A DNA stretch of 34,985 nucleotides. It comes from Burkholderiaceae bacterium. Its GTDB lineage: Bacteria; Pseudomonadota; Gammaproteobacteria; Burkholderiales; Burkholderiaceae_F. The stretch lies in contig JANWXE010000022.1 of NCBI GenBank assembly GCA_025055385.1, positions 1 to 34,985 on the forward strand, read 5' to 3'. The position numbers and the translations under genes were made by a program. Of the stretch, positions 12,069 to 34,985 are shown piece by piece (position 1 is the stretch's first letter; the number at the start of each line of letters is the position of its first letter). Below the pieces are notes generated by a model, which worked only from the letters and a program-made list of their open reading frames with translations, was not told the origin of the DNA and made no database searches.

Positions 12069-13376
12069 ATGAGTAAGCCGAGGCTAGCCGCCGTGCGCGG
12101 CATGAACGATTTGCTGCCTTCCGAGGCGCCGCTGTGGGAATGGTTTGAGGCGCGCGTGCTGGACTGGCTGCGCAGCTATGGCTACCAGCAGATCCGCACC
12201 CCGATACTTGAGCACACTGAGGTGTTCGTACGCGGCATCGGTGAGGTCACCGACATCGTCGAGAAAGAGATGTACTCGTTCGAGGATCGGCTCAACGGTG
12301 AGCAGTTAACGCTTCGTCCCGAGTTCACCGCGGGCGTCATCCGTGCCGTCCTCGAGCACAACCTCACTTATGACGGGCCGCGTCGTCTCTGGAGTATCGG
12401 GCCCGTGTTTCGACACGAGCGTCCGCAGCGGGGACGTTATCGCCAGTTCCATCAGGTCAATGTCGAGGCGCTAGGGTTTGCTGGGCCAGATATCGATGCC
12501 GAGCACATTGTGATGCTGGCGCGCTTATGGAAGATCGTTGGGCTGACGCGCATCCGGCTGGAGCTGAACTGCCTCGGCCAGGCCGAGGAGCGCGCGCGCT
12601 ATCGCACCGATTTGATCGCGTACTTTGAGCGTCATCTGCAGCGACTCGATGCCGACGCCCGGCGCCGGCTGTATACGAACCCTCTGCGAATCTTGGATAG
12701 CAAGAACGCGGAGCTTGCCGATGTGGTGGCGGGGGCACCTCGCATTACCGACTACCTTAGTGCCGAGTCGCGTGGCTTCTTCGAGCGATTGCAGTCGCTG
12801 CTCACAGCGGCCGGTGTAGCCTTTACGGTCAACCCGCGGCTTGTCCGGGGGCTCGATTACTACAACCTGACCGTGTATGAGTGGATCACCGACGCTTTAG
12901 GGAGCCAAGGTACCGTGTGCGGCGGTGGCCGCTACGATCCCCTCGCCGAGCGAATGGGGGGGCGGTCCACGCCCGGCTGTGGCTTTGCGATTGGCATGGA
13001 GCGCGTCATCGAACTGTTACGAGCTTGCGGCCAGGGTCAGACCGCGCCAGCGCTCGACGTATATGTCGTGCATCAAGGAGGGGCGACCGCGCAGGCAGCT
13101 TTTCTGCTCGCTGAGCGGCTGCGCGACGCAGGCCTGGATGTCGCCTACCACGCCGGCGAGGCGAGTCTGAAATCACAAATGAAAAAGGCTGACGCGAGCG
13201 GGGCGGAATTCGCTGTGATCATTGGCGAGCGCGAGCTGGCTGCCGGCGAGGCGGCCATCAAGGCATTGCGTGCGCAAAACGCTCAGGCGCCTTTTGCACG
13301 GCAAAGCACGGTGCCGCAGGAAAAGCTGGCTGAGGCGTTGATCGATGCGCTAACAGACGGCAGTCCGGAAGATTGA
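12069..13376 (+). CDS. hisS: Histidyl-tRNA synthetase
   Basis: This class II synthetase charges tRNA-His. The 435-residue product has all catalytic motifs: motif 1 around [12 protein letters not shown], motif 2 in [20 protein letters not shown], the histidine-specific [15 protein letters not shown] and VCGGGRYD, and motif 3 [13 protein letters not shown]. The anticodon-binding domain follows from about residue 340. The length is normal. ATG at 12069 is 7 bases after the ispG stop. The final codons run up to the yfgM start with a short gap. The window also encodes the paralogue HisZ at 20474; HisS is the one with the HisA/HisB motifs intact and the anticodon domain present. Confidence 0.97.
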
Positions 13377-20269: not shown

Positions 20270-20457
20270 TGAACGGCACGACCTTCGGTTTAGCGATCGC
20301 GCTGATGTTGATCTTGGAAGGGCTGCTGCCGCTGGCGGCACCGGCGCGCTGGCGTGAGATCTTTCAACGTGTTTCGGCGCTGACCGACGGTCAGATTCGT
20401 TTTTTCGGGTTGGCCGCCGTCGGCAGTGGGTTGGCACTGCTGCTGGTGCTGCTGTAG
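20269..20457 (+). CDS. Small DUF2065 inner-membrane protein
   Basis: This 62-residue protein has two hydrophobic segments, about 5-24 (TFGLAIALMLILEGLLPLAA) and about 44-62 (IRFFGLAAVGSGLALLLVLL). They are joined by a short polar loop containing RWREIFQRVSALTDGQ. It matches the DUF2065 family (YjeT in E. coli), which is regularly encoded right after hflC. Function is unknown. The linkage to hflKC suggests a membrane role near FtsH, but this is context only. The ATG at 20269 shares one base with the hflC stop (TGATG). Confidence 0.9.
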   Translation: MNGTTFGLAIALMLILEGLLPLAAPARWREIFQRVSALTDGQIRFFGLAAVGSGLALLLVLL

Positions 20458-20473
20458 GCACGACAGCGCACCC

Positions 20474-21610
20474 ATGGCGAGCTGGCTGCTTCCGGAAGGG
20501 ATCTCCGACGTGCTGCCTGAGGAGGCGCGGCGCGTCGAGGGCCTACGGCGCGCACTGCTCGATTTATACGCCAGCTATGGCTACGAGTTCGTGATCCCGC
20601 CGCTGATCGAGTATCTGGACTCGCTGCTCACCGGCACCGGGCGTGACCTGGACCTGCGCACGTTTAAGTTCGTCGATCAACTGTCGGGCCGCCAATTGGG
20701 TCTGCGCGCCGATATCACGCCGCAGACCGCTCGCATCGATGCTCATATTTTGAACCGCAGCGGTGTCGTGCGGCTCTGCTATGCCGGCAGCGTGCTGCAT
20801 ACACGACCAGCACACCCGCTGGCCACACGGCAGCCGATTCAGGTTGGCGCGGAGCTCTACGGGCATGCAGGGCTCGCGGCAGATGCGGAGATACAGCAAC
20901 TGGCGGTGGCCTCGCTGCGACGGGCTGGCGTGCAACGCGTCGTGCTGGACCTCGGGCATACGGCCATCGTGCGGGCGCTGCTGGCGGACGTGCCGCCTCC
21001 GATCGCTGAGCAAATCATCGACGCCTTGGCAGCAAAAGACGCGCCGGCGCTGCGCGCAGCAGCGCGCGTTGCGCCGCCCGCGACGGCGGCTGCCGTCGAG
21101 GCGTTGACCCATCTGCATGGTGACGTTCGTGTCATCGATGAGGCGCGGCGGCTGCTGCCGTCGCAGCCGATAATCGTCCGTGCATTGGACGATCTCGCCC
21201 GGCTGGCAGAGATCAGTGATGCGGATGAGGTCGGTATTGATTTGGCTGACTTGCACGGTTACCGCTACTACACCGGCGTGAACTTCGCTGCCTATGAGCC
21301 GCGTGTGGCCGGCGCGTTGCTGCGGGGGGGCCGCTACGACGACATTGGGCGCGCTTTCGGACGGGCGCGTCCGGCCACCGGTTTTTCGGTCGACTTACGC
21401 GACCTCGTGCGCCTGCACGAGGGGGACCCTGCGCCGCTTCCGATTGTGGCGCCGGCCGATGATGATCCGGCGCTGGCGCAGGCAGTCGCGGCGCTACGTG
21501 CTAACGGTGCGGTGGTGGTACGACAGTTGGCTCCGGACGAACCGCTGCCAGCGTTAGCGCGTCGGCTCTGCCGCATCGACGGTCGCTGGCAGGTGGTCGA
21601 TCAGGATTAA
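20474..21610 (+). CDS. hisZ: ATP phosphoribosyltransferase regulatory subunit HisZ
   Basis: HisZ is a HisS paralogue without synthetase activity that joins the short form of HisG to make a functional ATP phosphoribosyltransferase, the first step of histidine synthesis. The 378-residue product has the class II core (WLLPEGISDVLPEEA, then LRADITPQTARIDAH, then GRYDDIGRAFGRARPATGFSVDL) but no anticodon-binding domain. The histidine-specific region reads LHGYRYYTGVNFAAY. ATG at 20474 is preferred because upstream codons lie in the DUF2065 gene. HisZ before purA is the common betaproteobacterial order. Its presence implies a short HisG elsewhere in the genome. Confidence 0.95.
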   Translation: MASWLLPEGISDVLPEEARRVEGLRRALLDLYASYGYEFVIPPLIEYLDSLLTGTGRDLDLRTFKFVDQLSGRQLGLRADITPQTARIDAHILNRSGVVRLCYAGSVLHTRPAHPLATRQPIQVGAELYGHAGLAADAEIQQLAVASLRRAGVQRVVLDLGHTAIVRALLADVPPPIAEQIIDALAAKDAPALRAAARVAPPATAAAVEALTHLHGDVRVIDEARRLLPSQPIIVRALDDLARLAEISDADEVGIDLADLHGYRYYTGVNFAAYEPRVAGALLRGGRYDDIGRAFGRARPATGFSVDLRDLVRLHEGDPAPLPIVAPADDDPALAQAVAALRANGAVVVRQLAPDEPLPALARRLCRIDGRWQVVDQD

Positions 21611-29097: not shown

Positions 29098-30486
29098 ATG
29101 CGCGCGCAGCGCATGGAGGCAGCGCAGTTGCAGGCGGTGCGCACGCCGCCGCACTCAATCGAGGCCGAGCAGGCTGTCCTTGGAGGGCTGCTGCTTGACA
29201 ACACGGCTTGGGATCGGGTCGCTGACCTGATTACGGCCGGTGACTTCTATCGGCACGACCATCGGCTCATTTACCAGGCAATCGGAAGGCTGCGCGAGGC
29301 GGACAAGCCGGCCGATGTAGTGACCGTATTTGAGTCGCTGCAGTCTGCAGGCCGCGCTGACGATGTCGGCGGGCTAGCGTATCTGACAGCACTGGCGACG
29401 AACACGCCATCAGCTGCGAATATTCGCCGGTACGCCGAGATCGTGCGTGACCGGGCTATTCTGCGGCGGCTGGTCACAATCGGAGATGAAATCGCTACTG
29501 CGGCTTTGAATCCTCAGGGGCGTGACACGCGGGCGATTCTGGACGAGGCCGAGAGCAAGATATTTCAGATCGCCGAGGCAGGTGCGCGTGGCCGGCAAGG
29601 CTTTGTCGACATGGATCGTCTGCTCACACAAGTGGTGGAGCGCATCCAGGAGCTGTTTGAGCGGGCGCATCCGTCGGATGTGACCGGTGTGCCAACGGGG
29701 TTCGTCGATCTAGACAGCAAGACCGCGGGGCTGCAGCCAGGCGATCTGATCGTAATCGCTGGGCGGCCAAGCATGGGTAAAACGGCGTTTGCGCTGAACA
29801 TCGGTGAGCACGTGGCGATCGACAACGGGCTGCCGGTGGCGGTGTTCTCAATGGAAATGAGCGCCTCCCAGCTCGCGCTGCGCCTGTTGAGCTCAGTGGG
29901 ACGAATCGATCAGCAGCGGCTGCGCACCGGCCGCTTGCAAGAAGACGATTGGCCGAAATTGACAGCCGCGATGCAGAAGTTGCACGAAGCGCAGCTGTAC
30001 ATCGATGAGACGCCCGCGTTGAATGCGATGGACCTGCGTGCGCGGGCCCGACGGCTACATCGCACCTGCGGCAAGCTGGGACTGATCATCGTCGATTACT
30101 TGCAGCTGATGTCAGCGGTCAGCGTTGGCGAAAATCGCGCCACGGAGATTTCGGAGATTTCGCGCTCCCTAAAGGCTTTAGCTAAGGAGCTCAACGTACC
30201 GGTGGTCGCTCTATCCCAGCTGAACCGTACGGTGGAGCAACGTGCCGATAAGAGGCCAGTAATGTCGGACCTGCGCGAATCTGGCGCGATTGAACAAGAT
30301 GCTGACCTGATCCTCTTTATCTACCGCGACGAAGTGTACAACCCGGATACACCGGATAAAGGGATCGCAGAGATCATCATCGGCAAACAACGCAACGGGC
30401 CAATTGGACGCGTGAGCCTGCGCTTCGGTGGTGAATACACCCGGTTCGATAATTTGGCCATAGGGCATGAGCGCGCACCTTTCTGA
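29098..30486 (+). CDS. dnaB: Replicative DNA helicase DnaB
   Basis: DnaB is the hexameric 5'-3' helicase of the replication fork. The 462-residue product has the N-terminal DnaG-interacting domain (PHSIEAEQAVLGGLLLDN). A linker follows, then the RecA-like ATPase domain with Walker A GRPSMGKT at about 222-229, Walker B LGLIIVDYLQLM, the SQLNRTVEQR element with arginine residues, and DLRESGAIEQDADLI. There is no intein. ATG at 29098 follows GAGAGG; an ATG six codons inside is an alternative. The first roughly 14 residues are not conserved. It shares the operon of rpsF, and its 3' end overlaps the DUF47 gene by 20 bases. Confidence 0.97.
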   Translation: MRAQRMEAAQLQAVRTPPHSIEAEQAVLGGLLLDNTAWDRVADLITAGDFYRHDHRLIYQAIGRLREADKPADVVTVFESLQSAGRADDVGGLAYLTALATNTPSAANIRRYAEIVRDRAILRRLVTIGDEIATAALNPQGRDTRAILDEAESKIFQIAEAGARGRQGFVDMDRLLTQVVERIQELFERAHPSDVTGVPTGFVDLDSKTAGLQPGDLIVIAGRPSMGKTAFALNIGEHVAIDNGLPVAVFSMEMSASQLALRLLSSVGRIDQQRLRTGRLQEDDWPKLTAAMQKLHEAQLYIDETPALNAMDLRARARRLHRTCGKLGLIIVDYLQLMSAVSVGENRATEISEISRSLKALAKELNVPVVALSQLNRTVEQRADKRPVMSDLRESGAIEQDADLILFIYRDEVYNPDTPDKGIAEIIIGKQRNGPIGRVSLRFGGEYTRFDNLAIGHERAPF

Positions 30487-31171
30487 ATGCAATGTCGCGA
30501 GTCCGCTGCCAGAAGGCCGCGAGCGGCGTACGCTGGGGCGCAAGCTGCGCTGGCATTTATGGCCGCGCGACGCGCGTTTCTTCATTTTGTTCGAGCGGCA
30601 GGCTGCATTGTGCGTGCAGAGCCTGGCGGCCCTTGCGGCGTTGCTAGCCGATGTGCGCGATCCGGACGGCCGCGTGCGGGACATTGAGGCGATCGAAAAA
30701 CGCGGCGATGCGGTGGTCGAAGATGTGCGGTTGCTGCTGACGCGCACGCGATTCCCTCCTTTTGCGCGCACGGTTGTGCATGAGCTGATCAACCGCCTGG
30801 ACGACGTACTGGATGTTGCCGAAGATGCGGCGCAGTCGTTGCACTTGTATCACGTCACCGCGGTGACTTCAGAGACGGTGCGGCTGGCCCAGCTAGCGCT
30901 CGCTAGCACCGAACGCCTGCAAGAAGCGATCGCGCAGCTGCGAGCGTTGCGTAGCCCGCGAGCGATCCTCGCGTTGGCGCGCGAGGTGGACGCATTAGAG
31001 GCGCAGGCCGACCACGTAATGCGGGCTGCCATGGCGCGCCTTTTTCGCGACGAAACCGACACCCGGCAGCTGGTCAAGTTGAAGGCCATCTATGAGCTTC
31101 TAGAGTCGGTGACCGACCGCTGCAAAGACGTCGGCAAGGTGCTGGAAGCAATCGTGCTCAGACACGGCTGA
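30467..31171 (+). CDS. DUF47 family PhoU-like protein
   Basis: The 234-residue product is a helical PhoU-like protein of the DUF47 (TIGR00153) type. It shows FFILFERQAALCVQSLAALAALL, DIEAIEKRGDAVVEDVRLLL, FPPFARTVVHELINRLDDVLD and IYELLESVTDRCKDVGKVLEAIVL, the usual pattern of acidic residues on long helices that bind metal or contact a transporter. Such proteins usually sit directly before a PiT-type low-affinity phosphate transporter and regulate it. Here no transporter follows. ATG at 30467 overlaps the end of dnaB by 20 bases in another frame. The DUF47 assignment is firm; a phosphate role is inferred from the family. Confidence 0.9.
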   Translation: MSAHLSECNVASPLPEGRERRTLGRKLRWHLWPRDARFFILFERQAALCVQSLAALAALLADVRDPDGRVRDIEAIEKRGDAVVEDVRLLLTRTRFPPFARTVVHELINRLDDVLDVAEDAAQSLHLYHVTAVTSETVRLAQLALASTERLQEAIAQLRALRSPRAILALAREVDALEAQADHVMRAAMARLFRDETDTRQLVKLKAIYELLESVTDRCKDVGKVLEAIVLRHG

Positions 31172-31642
31172 GCGATCGACGCGCTGGGTAGCCCATCGCC
31201 ATCGCCCTGGTCGCCGTCGGCATCGCCGGCGGGTGTGGCCAGCGCTGTCTGGCATCGTCTTTGGCTGCGGCAGCATCGTGATGGGCGCCGCATTCGGCAG
31301 GTTCCGCGAGGTCGGCGTCGGCACGTTCACCGTGCTCGGCCTGCGCGCGCTCGCCGGTATGGTAGTCAACTGCGTTACCTCGATCATCACGCGCGAGCGG
31401 ACGGCTGCCAGCTGCGCGGGCCTGTTTGGTGCCGCCCTCGGAACCGTAGCAGGCGTCTACACCGGCCTAGTCGAGCTGCTGTTTGTGCCCCTGGAGGACG
31501 CGGCCCTTGGAGAATGCATCGCACGCCGCGATGCGCTGCGCACCGGCAAGGCAGGGCTTGCCACTTGGCGGGGGCGGGCGGCCGGCGCGGCGATCAACCT
31601 CGCGTGATGACCGGCGCGTTCGTCGCGGCGTTGTTACTTTAG
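31172..31642 (+). pseudogene. Frameshifted DUF456-like membrane protein remnant
   Basis: Three frames together spell a DUF456-like protein. One frame reads PIAIALVAVGIAGG up to about 31230. After a one-base shift the next reads VWPALSGIVFG, FREVGVGTFTVLG, GLFGAALGTVAGVYTGL, then RRDALRTGKAGLATWRG and AAINLA, ending in TGA at 31605. After another one-base shift MTGAFVAALLL ends at TAG 31640-31642. Each shift is repaired by adding one base, at GGG near 31231 and at GCGTG near 31604. The expected start region reads ATCGACGCGCTG from 31175, so the start codon also seems lost, with further disturbance near 31190. Several glycine and proline positions I expect in the family are changed. This also accounts for most of the gap after DUF47. 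A functional 124-codon ORF from GTG 31233 is less likely because it lacks the first helix and any ribosome-binding site. Confidence 0.68.
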
Positions 31643-31694
31643 GCAAGGCACGTGTCGGTGGCTGGGCGGTGTTGAAATGCCGCCATCGGATGCT
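31643..31694. other. Short convergent spacer without a clear terminator
   Basis: This spacer lies between the plus-strand remnant and the end of phoH on the minus strand. GGCGG and CCGCC around 31667-31684 can pair weakly but no T-run follows on either strand. I see no other structure here. Confidence 0.4.
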
Positions 31695-33287
31695 TCAGAG
31701 AACCTCCGCGGCGTGATCGGCCAGCCGCGACCGCTCGCCGCGTTGTAGCGTCACGTGGCCCGAGTGCGGCCAGCCTTTGAATCGGTCCACCACGTAAGTC
31801 AAGCCGGAACTTCCTTCGGTCAGGTAGGGCGTATCGATCTGCGCAATGTTGCCAAGACAGACGACCTTGGTGCCTGGGCCAGCGCGTGTGATCAGCGTCT
31901 TCATCTGCTTAGGCGTGAGATTCTGCGCTTCGTCAATAATCAGGTACTTGTTGATGAAGGTGCGCCCGCGCATAAAACTCATCGACTTAATGCGAATACG
32001 CGCACGGATCAGATCGTTGGTGGCGGCGCGGCCCCATTCACCCGCAGCATCGTCAGTCTTGTTCAGTACCTCGAGATTGTCCTCGAGAGCTCCCATCCAA
32101 GGGGCCATCTTTTCTTCTTCGGTGCCAGGCAGGAAGCCAATGTCCTCACCAAGTGGAACCGTGGCACGGGTGACGATAATCTCGGTGTAGCGCTTGCTCT
32201 CTAGCGTCTGTGCCAGCCCGGCGGCAAGCGCCAGCAGCGTCTTGCCGGTGCCGGCTTGGCCAATCAACGTGACAAAATCGCATTCTGGGTCCATCAGCAA
32301 GTTCAGCGCGAAACTCTGTTCTCGATTGCGCGCAGTGATGCCCCAAACCGCATTCTTCGCGTGCTGGTAGTCGCGCAGTACACGCAGGACGGCGGATTTA
32401 CCCCGCACCTCTTTAACCTGAGCGTAAAAAGGGCTACCGTTTTCGAGGTAAACAAACTGGTTGACAAGCAGCTCGGCTGCCAGGGGCCCGTGAATGCGGT
32501 AGTAGGTATAGCCAGCCTGCTGCCAGGATTCCATGCCCTTGCCGTGTTTGTCCCAAAAGTTGGCTGGCAACTCTCGCATGCCGGTGTAGAGGATGTCGGT
32601 GTCCTCAAGCACCTTATCGTTGTAATAATCCTCCGCCGGCAGCCCGAGGGCGCGTGCTTTCACACGCATGTTGATGTCTTTGGACACCAGCACAACATCG
32701 CGCTGCGGATGCATCTCCTTGAGTGCCCGCACCACGCCAAGAATCTGGTTGTCGGCCTTGCCAGCAGGCAGGCTATCCGGCAGTGTCACTTTGAGCGCCT
32801 GCGTCTGAAAGAACAGCCGGCCGGCCGCCTCCGTGTTGCCGAGCGCGGACAGCGGGATGCCCTCCTCAATCGGGTTCTTGCAGGCCGCCACGAGTGCGTC
32901 AAGGGAGCGGCTGACTTGGCGCGCGTTGCGGGCGACCTCGGACATTCCTTTCTTGTGGTTGTCTAGTTCCTCCAGCGTCATCATGGGCAGGAAGACATCA
33001 TGCTCTTCAAAGCGAAAGAGGCATGTTGGATCGTGCATCAGCACATTGGTGTCTAGCACGAACAGCCGGCGTGGGCCGGCGGGGGCCCGCGCCTTGCGGC
33101 CGTTGCGTGGCTTGTTTTCCACAAGGGCGAGGTGAGCGGCGGCTGCCGTGGCCGGTGTGGGTCGCGCCTGCGAACGCGGTGTGGGCGAAGCCGGCAGCCG
33201 GATCGGTTCGGCGCGGGCGGTCGGAAGAGGAGCCAAAATGGTACCGGGCTTGGTTGGCGGTTTCGGCAGCGGCATAGGGTCCTGCAA
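31695..33287 (-). CDS. PIN-PhoH fusion ATPase/ribonuclease (PhoH family)
   Basis: The 530-residue product joins a PIN nuclease domain to a PhoH ATPase domain. Residues 1-70 are Pro/Ala-rich and poorly conserved. The PIN domain covers about 74-205: LFVLDTNVLMHDP with Asp79, EELDNHKKG, and VLVSKDINMRVKARALGL. The PhoH domain follows with Walker A GQAGTGKT at 343-350, the ATP-binding TRATVPLGEDIGFLPGT and Walker B YLIIDEAQNLTPKQMK. PIN-PhoH proteins (PhoH2/YlaK type) are thought to be ATP-dependent RNA helicase-nucleases; the natural RNA target is not established. ATG at 33287 is used, 8 bases after the bcp stop. The mature core is clear, but the exact start within the low-complexity N-terminus is less sure. 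Confidence 0.93.
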   Translation of the reverse strand: MQDPMPLPKPPTKPGTILAPLPTARAEPIRLPASPTPRSQARPTPATAAAAHLALVENKPRNGRKARAPAGPRRLFVLDTNVLMHDPTCLFRFEEHDVFLPMMTLEELDNHKKGMSEVARNARQVSRSLDALVAACKNPIEEGIPLSALGNTEAAGRLFFQTQALKVTLPDSLPAGKADNQILGVVRALKEMHPQRDVVLVSKDINMRVKARALGLPAEDYYNDKVLEDTDILYTGMRELPANFWDKHGKGMESWQQAGYTYYRIHGPLAAELLVNQFVYLENGSPFYAQVKEVRGKSAVLRVLRDYQHAKNAVWGITARNREQSFALNLLMDPECDFVTLIGQAGTGKTLLALAAGLAQTLESKRYTEIIVTRATVPLGEDIGFLPGTEEEKMAPWMGALEDNLEVLNKTDDAAGEWGRAATNDLIRARIRIKSMSFMRGRTFINKYLIIDEAQNLTPKQMKTLITRAGPGTKVVCLGNIAQIDTPYLTEGSSGLTYVVDRFKGWPHSGHVTLQRGERSRLADHAAEVL

Positions 33288-33295
33288 GGGTTCGG

Positions 33296-33757
33296 TCAGA
33301 GCGTGGTGACGAAGGCAAGCACCTCGCTGACGTGGTTGGGCACCTTAACGCCACGCCATTCACGCGCCAGCTTGCCGTCGGCACTGATCACGAAGGTGCT
33401 GCGCTCGATGCCGCGTACTTGTTTGCCGTACATGTTCTTCATCTTGATGACGCCGAACAGCTCGCACAGCTTCTCTTGTGGATCGGAGATCAGCTCGAAC
33501 GGGAATTCGTACTTGGCCTTAAAATTAGCGTGGGACTTGAGGCTGTCGCGCGAGACGCCGACGATCTCCGCGCCCGCCTTGCGGAACTGCGGCCACGCCT
33601 TGGCGAAGTCGATGCCTTCTGTCGTGCAGCCGGGCGTGTTGTCTTTCGGATAAAAATACAGCACAAGCTTTTTGCCCCTGTGATCGGATAAGCGAAATGC
33701 CCCGCCGGTCGACTCGGCAGTGAAATCGGGCACCGGCTTGCCCACTTGGACTGTCAT
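33296..33757 (-). CDS. bcp: Thiol peroxidase of the Bcp/PrxQ family
   Basis: This cytosolic peroxiredoxin reduces hydrogen peroxide and organic peroxides. The 153-residue product has the thioredoxin fold with YFYPKDNTPGCTTEG, in which Cys44 is the peroxidatic cysteine, and the conserved Arg in GIERSTFVI. No cysteine is present five residues after Cys44, nor in the helix position SHANFKAK where other PrxQ proteins carry a resolving cysteine. The only other cysteine is Cys98 in EKLCELFG. It may work as a one-cysteine enzyme or use Cys98. The frame is open seven codons upstream (to 33778, overlapping the next gene), but ATG 33757 gives the usual MTVQVGKPVPDF. It is in an operon with Mth938 and phoH. 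Confidence 0.94.
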   Translation of the reverse strand: MTVQVGKPVPDFTAESTGGAFRLSDHRGKKLVLYFYPKDNTPGCTTEGIDFAKAWPQFRKAGAEIVGVSRDSLKSHANFKAKYEFPFELISDPQEKLCELFGVIKMKNMYGKQVRGIERSTFVISADGKLAREWRGVKVPNHVSEVLAFVTTL

Positions 33758-33767
33758 CGTGGTTTCT

Positions 33768-34142
33768 CTACGGTTCAATCAGCAGAATCGCGAGGACACG
33801 CCGGCCTTCGGCCATCAGGATGTTGTAGGTGCGGCAGGCAGCTGGCGTGTCCATCATTTCGACACCGATACGCGCCTGCGTCAGCGGGGTGAGCAGGCGT
33901 GGATGCAGAAAGCGCTGTTGGCGTCCCGTTCCAAGTAGCACGACATCGGGTGTGTAGGCGCGGATAGCGTCGAAATCCTCGACCCGCAGCGATTCGAAAT
34001 CGCTCGCCGGCCACGGCCTGACGGGCTCGTTTGGAATGAGAACAATGGCGTGCTGGTAGCGGATGCGGTTGACCTCGACGTAGCCGGAGCCGTAGGCGGT
34101 AACCGTATTACGGTCAGTGGGCGGATCAGCGTGTAGTTTCAA
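33768..34142 (-). CDS. Mth938-like (DUF498) domain protein
   Basis: The 124-residue product matches the Mth938/NDUFAF3-like family: NTVTAYGSGYVEVNRIRY near the N-terminus, VVLLGTGRQQRFL in the middle and ARIGVEMMDTPAACRTYNILMAEGRRV near the end. Human NDUFAF3 is a complex I assembly factor; the bacterial role is not established. The start is TTG at 34142. An in-frame TAG lies at codon -8 upstream with no ATG between, and GGAG lies 5 bases before the TTG. The N-terminus MKLHAD is also typical. It is the first gene of the minus-strand group with bcp and phoH and is divergent from alaC. Confidence 0.88.
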   Translation of the reverse strand: MKLHADPPTDRNTVTAYGSGYVEVNRIRYQHAIVLIPNEPVRPWPASDFESLRVEDFDAIRAYTPDVVLLGTGRQQRFLHPRLLTPLTQARIGVEMMDTPAACRTYNILMAEGRRVLAILLIEP

Positions 34143-34266
34143 GTCAACTCCGGCAACGCAGCGCTATGTTGCAACGCAGCGGCGGCTGGCGCTTCAGGTA
34201 AATTATGCCAAGCGGTACGCCGGCTGAAGGCATCCCCAGGCGACACCGGTCGGTACAGGAGAACGC
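34143..34266. promoter_or_regulatory. Divergent intergenic region with an 11-base direct repeat
   Basis: These 124 bases separate the Mth938 gene (minus) from alaC (plus) and must hold both promoters. GCAACGCAGCG occurs at 34153-34163 and again at 34171-34181, 18 bases apart. TAAATT at 34199-34204 could be a -10 box for alaC but has no good -35 partner. CAGGAGAAC at 34256-34264 is the alaC ribosome-binding region. Confidence 0.35.
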
Positions 34267-34985
34267 ATGCAATCCGAATTGCCGCGCGAATTCCCGCGCA
34301 TCAAACGGCTGCCGCCGTACGTGTTCAACATCACGGCGGAGCTGAAAATGGCCGCGCGCCGTCGCGGCGAAGACATCATCGACATGAGCATGGGCAATCC
34401 GGACGGGCCCACGCCGAAGCATATCGTTGACAAGCTCGTCGAGGCGGCGCAGCGCGAAAACACGCACGGCTACTCGGTCTCCAAGGGTATACCGCGGCTG
34501 CGGCGCGCGATCGCCGGCTGGTACCAGCGCCGTTACGGGGTGGCGTTCGACCCGGATAGCGAGGCGATCGTCACGATCGGCTCCAAGGAGGGACTCGCCC
34601 ATTTGATGCTGGCGATCCTGGACCGCGGCGACACCGTCCTGGTGCCGAATCCGAGCTATCCGATCCATATCTATGGTGCGGTGATTGCCGGCGCCGACGT
34701 GCGCTCGGTGCGCATGACGCGCGACGTGGATTTCTTTGCCGAACTGGAGCGCGCGATCCGGGAGTCGATTCCGAAGCCCAAGCTGGTCATTCTTGGGTTT
34801 CCGAGCAACCCCACCGCGCAGTGCGTGGAGCTCGATTTCTTCGAACGCGTGGTGGCGCTGGCACGGCAGTACGGCATCTACGTCGTGCACGACCTGGCGT
34901 ATGCGGACATCGTCTTCGACGGCTACCAGGCGCCGTCCATCATGCAGGTGCCGGGTGCGCGCGAGGTGGCGGTGGAATTCTTCAC
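34267..34985 (+). CDS. alaC: PLP-dependent aminotransferase, AlaC type (3' end missing)
   Basis: This is a fold type I aminotransferase, most like alanine:pyruvate aminotransferase AlaC. The first 239 codons are visible and run off the window. They start [20 protein letters not shown], with [10 protein letters not shown] near 43, [14 protein letters not shown], the PLP-phosphate region [35 protein letters not shown] carrying the substrate/PLP Asn, and HDLAYADI with the Asp that binds the pyridine nitrogen. The PLP lysine would come shortly after the window edge. GGAGA at 34258-34262 lies just before ATG 34267. In relatives this gene is followed by homoserine dehydrogenase and threonine synthase genes; that cannot be seen here. 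Confidence 0.93.

Follow-up and report, generated by a model that had tools for sequence, protein, structure and literature searches.

In our study, the segment 31172-31642 of the window (the whole stretch of DNA analysed here, 34,985 nucleotides of contig JANWXE010000022.1 from a Burkholderiaceae bacterium, assembly GCA_025055385.1) was identified, with high confidence, as an in-place pseudogene of a DUF456 membrane-protein gene that has undergone real decay. The remnant begins right behind the stop codon of a DUF47 gene and closes at the TAG of 31640-31642; instead of one frame that begins with a start codon and runs for about 159-160 codons, it is distributed over three frames, with an ATC at the start position and in-frame stops. 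The designation of DUF456 as a membrane protein follows Bacillus subtilis YqgC, as described in PMC10888875. The features of the locus are listed in Table 1.

Table 1. Features of the DUF456 remnant and its neighbouring genes (positions of the window).
Feature	Position	Strand	Basis or remark
DUF456 remnant, overall	31172-31642		About 470 bases, between the DUF47 stop and the convergent phoH-type gene
dnaB, replicative helicase, intact	29098..30486	+	Pfam DnaB and DnaB_C
DUF47 / PhoU-like gene, intact	30467..31171	+	Pfam PhoU_div, 86.1 bits; stop at 31169-31171
ATC where relatives have an ATG/GTG start codon	31175..31177	+	Probable, from position; relatives' junctions compared
Stop codon TAG, in frame with the first DUF456 piece	31189..31191	+	Sequence and reading frames
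N-terminal DUF456 remnant, first frame, IAIALVAVGIAG	31195..31230	+	Profile columns 8-19
First clear frame break, at GGG	31231..31233	+	One base fewer than the relatives' spacing
Main DUF456 body, 124 codons, second frame	31233..31604	+	PF04306 match; profile columns 21-144
TGA and second frame break	31605..31607	+	10 bases fewer than in relatives up to the next conserved block
C-terminal DUF456 remnant, third frame, up to the old stop	31607..31642	+	Profile alignment
phoH-like gene, intact and convergent, carrying a PIN domain	31695..33287	-	Pfam PhoH, 159 bits; PIN_4, 124.8 bits

DUF456 homology across three reading frames

The initial annotation of this DNA had joined three reading frames into one DUF456-type protein, and our searches bear this out. 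The core, 31233-31604, matches the Pfam family DUF456 (PF04306) with 48.1-48.7 bits, over a cut-off of 29.4, and covers positions 2-125 of the 139 in the profile; the remaining over-cut-off DUF456 matches of the bacterial family reach 93.5-132.7 bits, compared with about 48 bits for the remnant. The end pieces were placed on a profile built from the 10 intact relatives by an alignment that tolerates frameshifts, with 1000 shuffles of each flank's own bases as the control. The 5' flank (31172-31232) scores 36.7 and the 3' flank (31605-31680) scores 36.9, whereas the best shuffles reach 23.4 and 26.2, respectively, so that 0 of 1000 attain the observed score in either case. Judged from the sequence, the homology across the three joined frames is far beyond chance. 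The C-terminal piece (31607-31639) reads MTGAFVAALLL. No Pfam family was matched by the 20-residue single-frame translation of 31175-31234. The core shares 43.5-50.0% identity with the 10 intact relatives; a search of the contigs with this core retrieved one distant relative only (L025, 39%), and a search of relatives with the decayed core found a match in 23 of 41 genomes.

Two other candidates were considered and rejected. A second intact DUF456 copy was sought in the 2.2 Mb of the organism's own assembly, where none exceeded the cut-off; the genome is 81.88% complete and such an absence is not proven by this search. The other DUF456 match in this genome (L002, G000 C151:7685-7981) scores 24.8 bits, under the cut-off, and lies in a 380-codon frame that we take to resemble an AI-2E-type transporter. 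An RNA element in place of a gene was also considered, and no Rfam match was obtained in 30900-31900 at E values up to 1.

Lesions at the start and at both frame breaks

The start codon of DUF456 is located 2-16 bases past the DUF47 stop in 7 of the 10 intact relatives; the exceptions are L040, where start and stop overlap, and L036 and L037, with a gap of about 70 bases. The window's ATC sits three bases past its own DUF47 stop, and this position after the stop suggests that 31175-31177 is the old start, the profile alignment itself beginning only at column 8. The loss of a start codon near 31175, as initially annotated, is thus upheld on the basis of position. The stretch from 31175 to 31194 comprises 20 bases, compared with 21 in relatives, and a third frame shift is therefore likely in this 5' part, although weakly anchored. 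At 31231-31233 the spacing is one base short, as had been claimed for the vicinity of 31231.

The 3' lesion differs from its first description. A one-base loss had been placed near 31604, but the distance between the conserved A (31602-31604) and the conserved F (31619-31621) is 14 bases, compared with 24 in all 10 intact relatives, and the shortfall is ten bases. Likewise, both lesions had been assigned to runs of G; this is correct for 31231-31233, which is a GGG, and incorrect for the 3' lesion (GCGTGATGA), which does not lie at a G run. It is important to consider whether the gene could be intact in the organism, with the breaks introduced by errors in assembling a metagenome-type genome or in calling its consensus, an explanation that we regard as very improbable. 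The genome is distributed in 200 contigs with the incompleteness given above, and one break does fall at GGG, where a one-base assembly error is possible for that lesion alone; however, a shortfall of ten bases, not one, speaks against a consensus error, and neither this shortfall nor an ATC at the start position corresponds to a homopolymer slip.

Relaxed constraint in the core

Because the core needs no frame correction, it provides a fair test of decay. Among the 45 positions that are invariant in the 10 intact relatives, 16 (36%) are changed in the window's DUF456 core: L22W, P26S, V28I, G34S, L37M, A38G, L58R, D66N, A69T, A74R, G78A, G101E, G109D, A124T, L135R, and K142N. Some of these changes, such as V28I and L37M, are mild. 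In the leave-one-out control, each DUF456 relative presents changes in 0-6 of 45-51 invariant positions. The window's neighbouring genes were evaluated in the same manner: DUF47 is changed in 4 of 66 invariant positions (relatives, 0-6 of 66-72) and dnaB in 6 of 242 (nine relatives, 1-24 of 243-266, with L037 left out of this comparison as its contig cuts dnaB). The initial annotation had viewed the altered family positions, together with the disturbed start, as signs of real decay, a view with which the 16 of 45 changed positions in DUF456, set against the 4 of 66 in DUF47, are in agreement.

The remaining measures of sequence change were obtained for the same genes. The ratio of the window's terminal branch to the relatives' mean (FastTree) is 5.5 for DUF456, 1.95 for DUF47, and 1.43 for dnaB; L036 is absent from alignment A1, yet present in the invariant-position and branch counts. 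DUF47 and dnaB are also somewhat fast, and therefore part of the DUF456 excess is lineage-wide. Charged residues at columns that are uncharged in relatives number 8 in the window's copy and 0-1 in each relative, and the columns gaining them are presumably membrane segments. The change at codon positions 1 and 2 relative to position 3 amounts in DUF456 to 0.65 between the window and its relatives and to 0.42 among the relatives; in DUF47 the corresponding values are 0.57 and 0.61. Positions 1 and 2 of DUF456 have thus shifted in the direction of position 3, a shift that is not seen in DUF47. The accelerated protein change is largely limited to the DUF456 gene, with DUF47 and dnaB near normal.

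These results bear on both alternatives to decay. The 16 changed invariant positions and the 8 private charged residues belong to an uncorrected core, which stands against sequencing or assembly error as the origin of the breaks. The other alternative, to which we give even less credence, is that the 124-codon frame starting at the GTG of 31233 is still translated into a shortened, fast-evolving DUF456 protein whose role is new or reduced: it would have 124 open codons with a GTG start and a score over the DUF456 cut-off in its favour, but it would lack the relatives' N-terminal 20 and C-terminal 15 columns, it carries charged residues where their columns are uncharged, and its third-position bias is weaker than theirs.

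Conservation of the locus among relatives

Our DUF47 search found a match in 15 of 61 genomes, the organism's own genome being counted. These yielded 14 loci at the dnaB position (L027-L040); L041 and L042, whose DUF47 copies are away from dnaB, were left out of this set. An intact DUF456 gene is found downstream of DUF47 in 10 of the 14 loci (L027-L032, L034, L036, L037, and L040), while the contig of L033 ends within DUF47 and is not scorable for DUF456. These 10 copies, all from the same bacterial family, coincide with the window in place, orientation, upstream order (dnaB - DUF47), and protein family; they differ from it in that each has a start codon and a single frame of 159-160 codons and in that they share 60.5-84.7% mutual identity over the columns of the core, none of which applies to the window's copy. 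The phoH gene comes next in 5 of the 10 intact-DUF456 loci, and in the other five no match to it was found in the available 163 to about 1000 bases beyond. Altogether, phoH is present in 7 of the 14 loci, with 80-92% identity over the available parts.

The other three loci of the set (L035, L038, and L039), all belonging to genus g4, presented no DUF456 match after dnaB - DUF47. In L035 and L038, phoH lies within about 150 and about 45 bases of DUF47, respectively, while no phoH match occurs within the available 1.5 kb of L039. L035 and L038 thus maintain the dnaB - DUF47 - phoH order, as at the window's locus, but tblastn identified no DUF456 remnant in them, whereas the window represents a still recognisable stage. 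The absence of DUF456 in genus g4 looks like a loss separate from that in the window.

Within the bacterial family, DUF456 exceeds the cut-off in 47 of 61 genomes, counting the remnant of the organism's own genome. No DUF456 match was obtained in any of the seven g4 genomes of this set, two of which are listed as 100% complete, or in its two g8 genomes. The same was observed in G001, G017, G044, and G070; among these, completeness is 61% in G001, 84% in G044, and 75% in G070, and in G017 DUF47 is located at a contig end. Sub-threshold DUF456 matches occur in G018, G045, G054, and G073, with G054 having a sub-threshold match only. Just one other genome represents the genus of the window; 61% complete, it yielded a weak phoH match and none for DUF456 or DUF47. 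Since DUF456 is unmatched in other genomes of this family (g4 and g8), the gene looks dispensable in it.

Integrity of the rest of the window

The DUF456 gene had been described as the only clearly broken gene of the window, and the scanned ORFs agree with this description: of the 30 other ORFs, 23 score over an NCBIfam cut-off without a visible break, which is a further point against assembly error. In these matches, pheT starts at the contig edge and hflC is matched in two stretches. For dnaB, DUF47, and phoH, each Pfam domain is matched by one uninterrupted stretch. The remaining 7 of the 30 ORFs, with matches that were weak or absent, are uninformative, and the region 33296-34985 was partly scanned (two ORFs). 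The hisZ gene, for the regulatory subunit of ATP phosphoribosyltransferase, and hisS also occur together in the window (20426-21610 and 12069-13376), each over its NCBIfam cut-off.

As a separate observation, a terminator-like hairpin is located at 31238-31253, within the remnant. The scan of 30400-32000 gave three terminator-like sites, compared with a shuffle mean of 1.0, and the hairpin inside the remnant may be a product of chance. No promoter-like sites were found in the same interval.

Ancestral function and the manganese connection

Our literature search on DUF456 / COG2839 found a single functional study (PMC10888875); a second candidate, PMC5379978, concerns DUF4564, which is a different domain, and was discarded. 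According to the former, the combined loss of yqgC (DUF456, COG2839) and sodA in B. subtilis renders the cells sensitive to manganese and reduces expression of two efflux genes, mneP and mneS, and either yqgC or sodA alone is enough (PMC10888875). In the same study, YqgC is a 160-residue membrane protein that bears the same family label, DUF456, and its likeness to the window's gene is one of label; it is intact, forms an operon with sodA, and is tied to the expression of manganese efflux genes (PMC10888875). Unlike the intact YqgC beside sodA, the window's copy adjoins DUF47 and is broken.

A Sod gene is present in the organism's own genome and, by an inference that extends across phyla, the loss of DUF456 may therefore be silent. 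In a set of 23 hand-picked genomes, Sod_Fe_C (PF02777) was identified in 19 and was missing in four: G001 and G008, which are without DUF456, and G050 and G053, which have it. No MntP (PF02659) match exceeded the cut-off in any of the 23 genomes, with or without DUF456, G044 having a sub-threshold match. Neither the MntP nor the Sod_Fe_C pattern separates the groups with and without DUF456 among these 23 genomes. G008, of genus g8 and listed as 95% complete, has no match to either DUF456 or Sod_Fe_C, and therefore Sod is not required for the absence of DUF456.

Proposed course of the decay

Our preferred reading is that a once-normal DUF456 gene, of the 159-160 codons maintained in the relatives, stood directly after DUF47 and then lost its start codon and acquired frame-changing deletions, at least two and probably three of them, one of about ten bases. 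Selection on the DUF456 protein would have lapsed, and such a lapse would account for the changes at invariant glycine, proline, and leucine positions as well as for the charged residues at columns that are uncharged in the relatives. As far as can be predicted from the reading frames, no functional product would now be made, and DUF456 may have become dispensable because its partners cover its job. Given that the core remains an open frame and scores above the DUF456 cut-off, the loss would not be very old. This remnant most likely originated through ordinary gene loss in a bacterium, not through a sequencing error.

The window presents a single in-place gene loss, with relatives that retain an intact copy on one side and relatives without a detectable copy on the other, and this case suggests that DUF456 is dispensable in the bacterial family. 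If the role in manganese described for B. subtilis holds more widely, the organism would constitute a natural knock-out of this gene in a background that keeps Sod.
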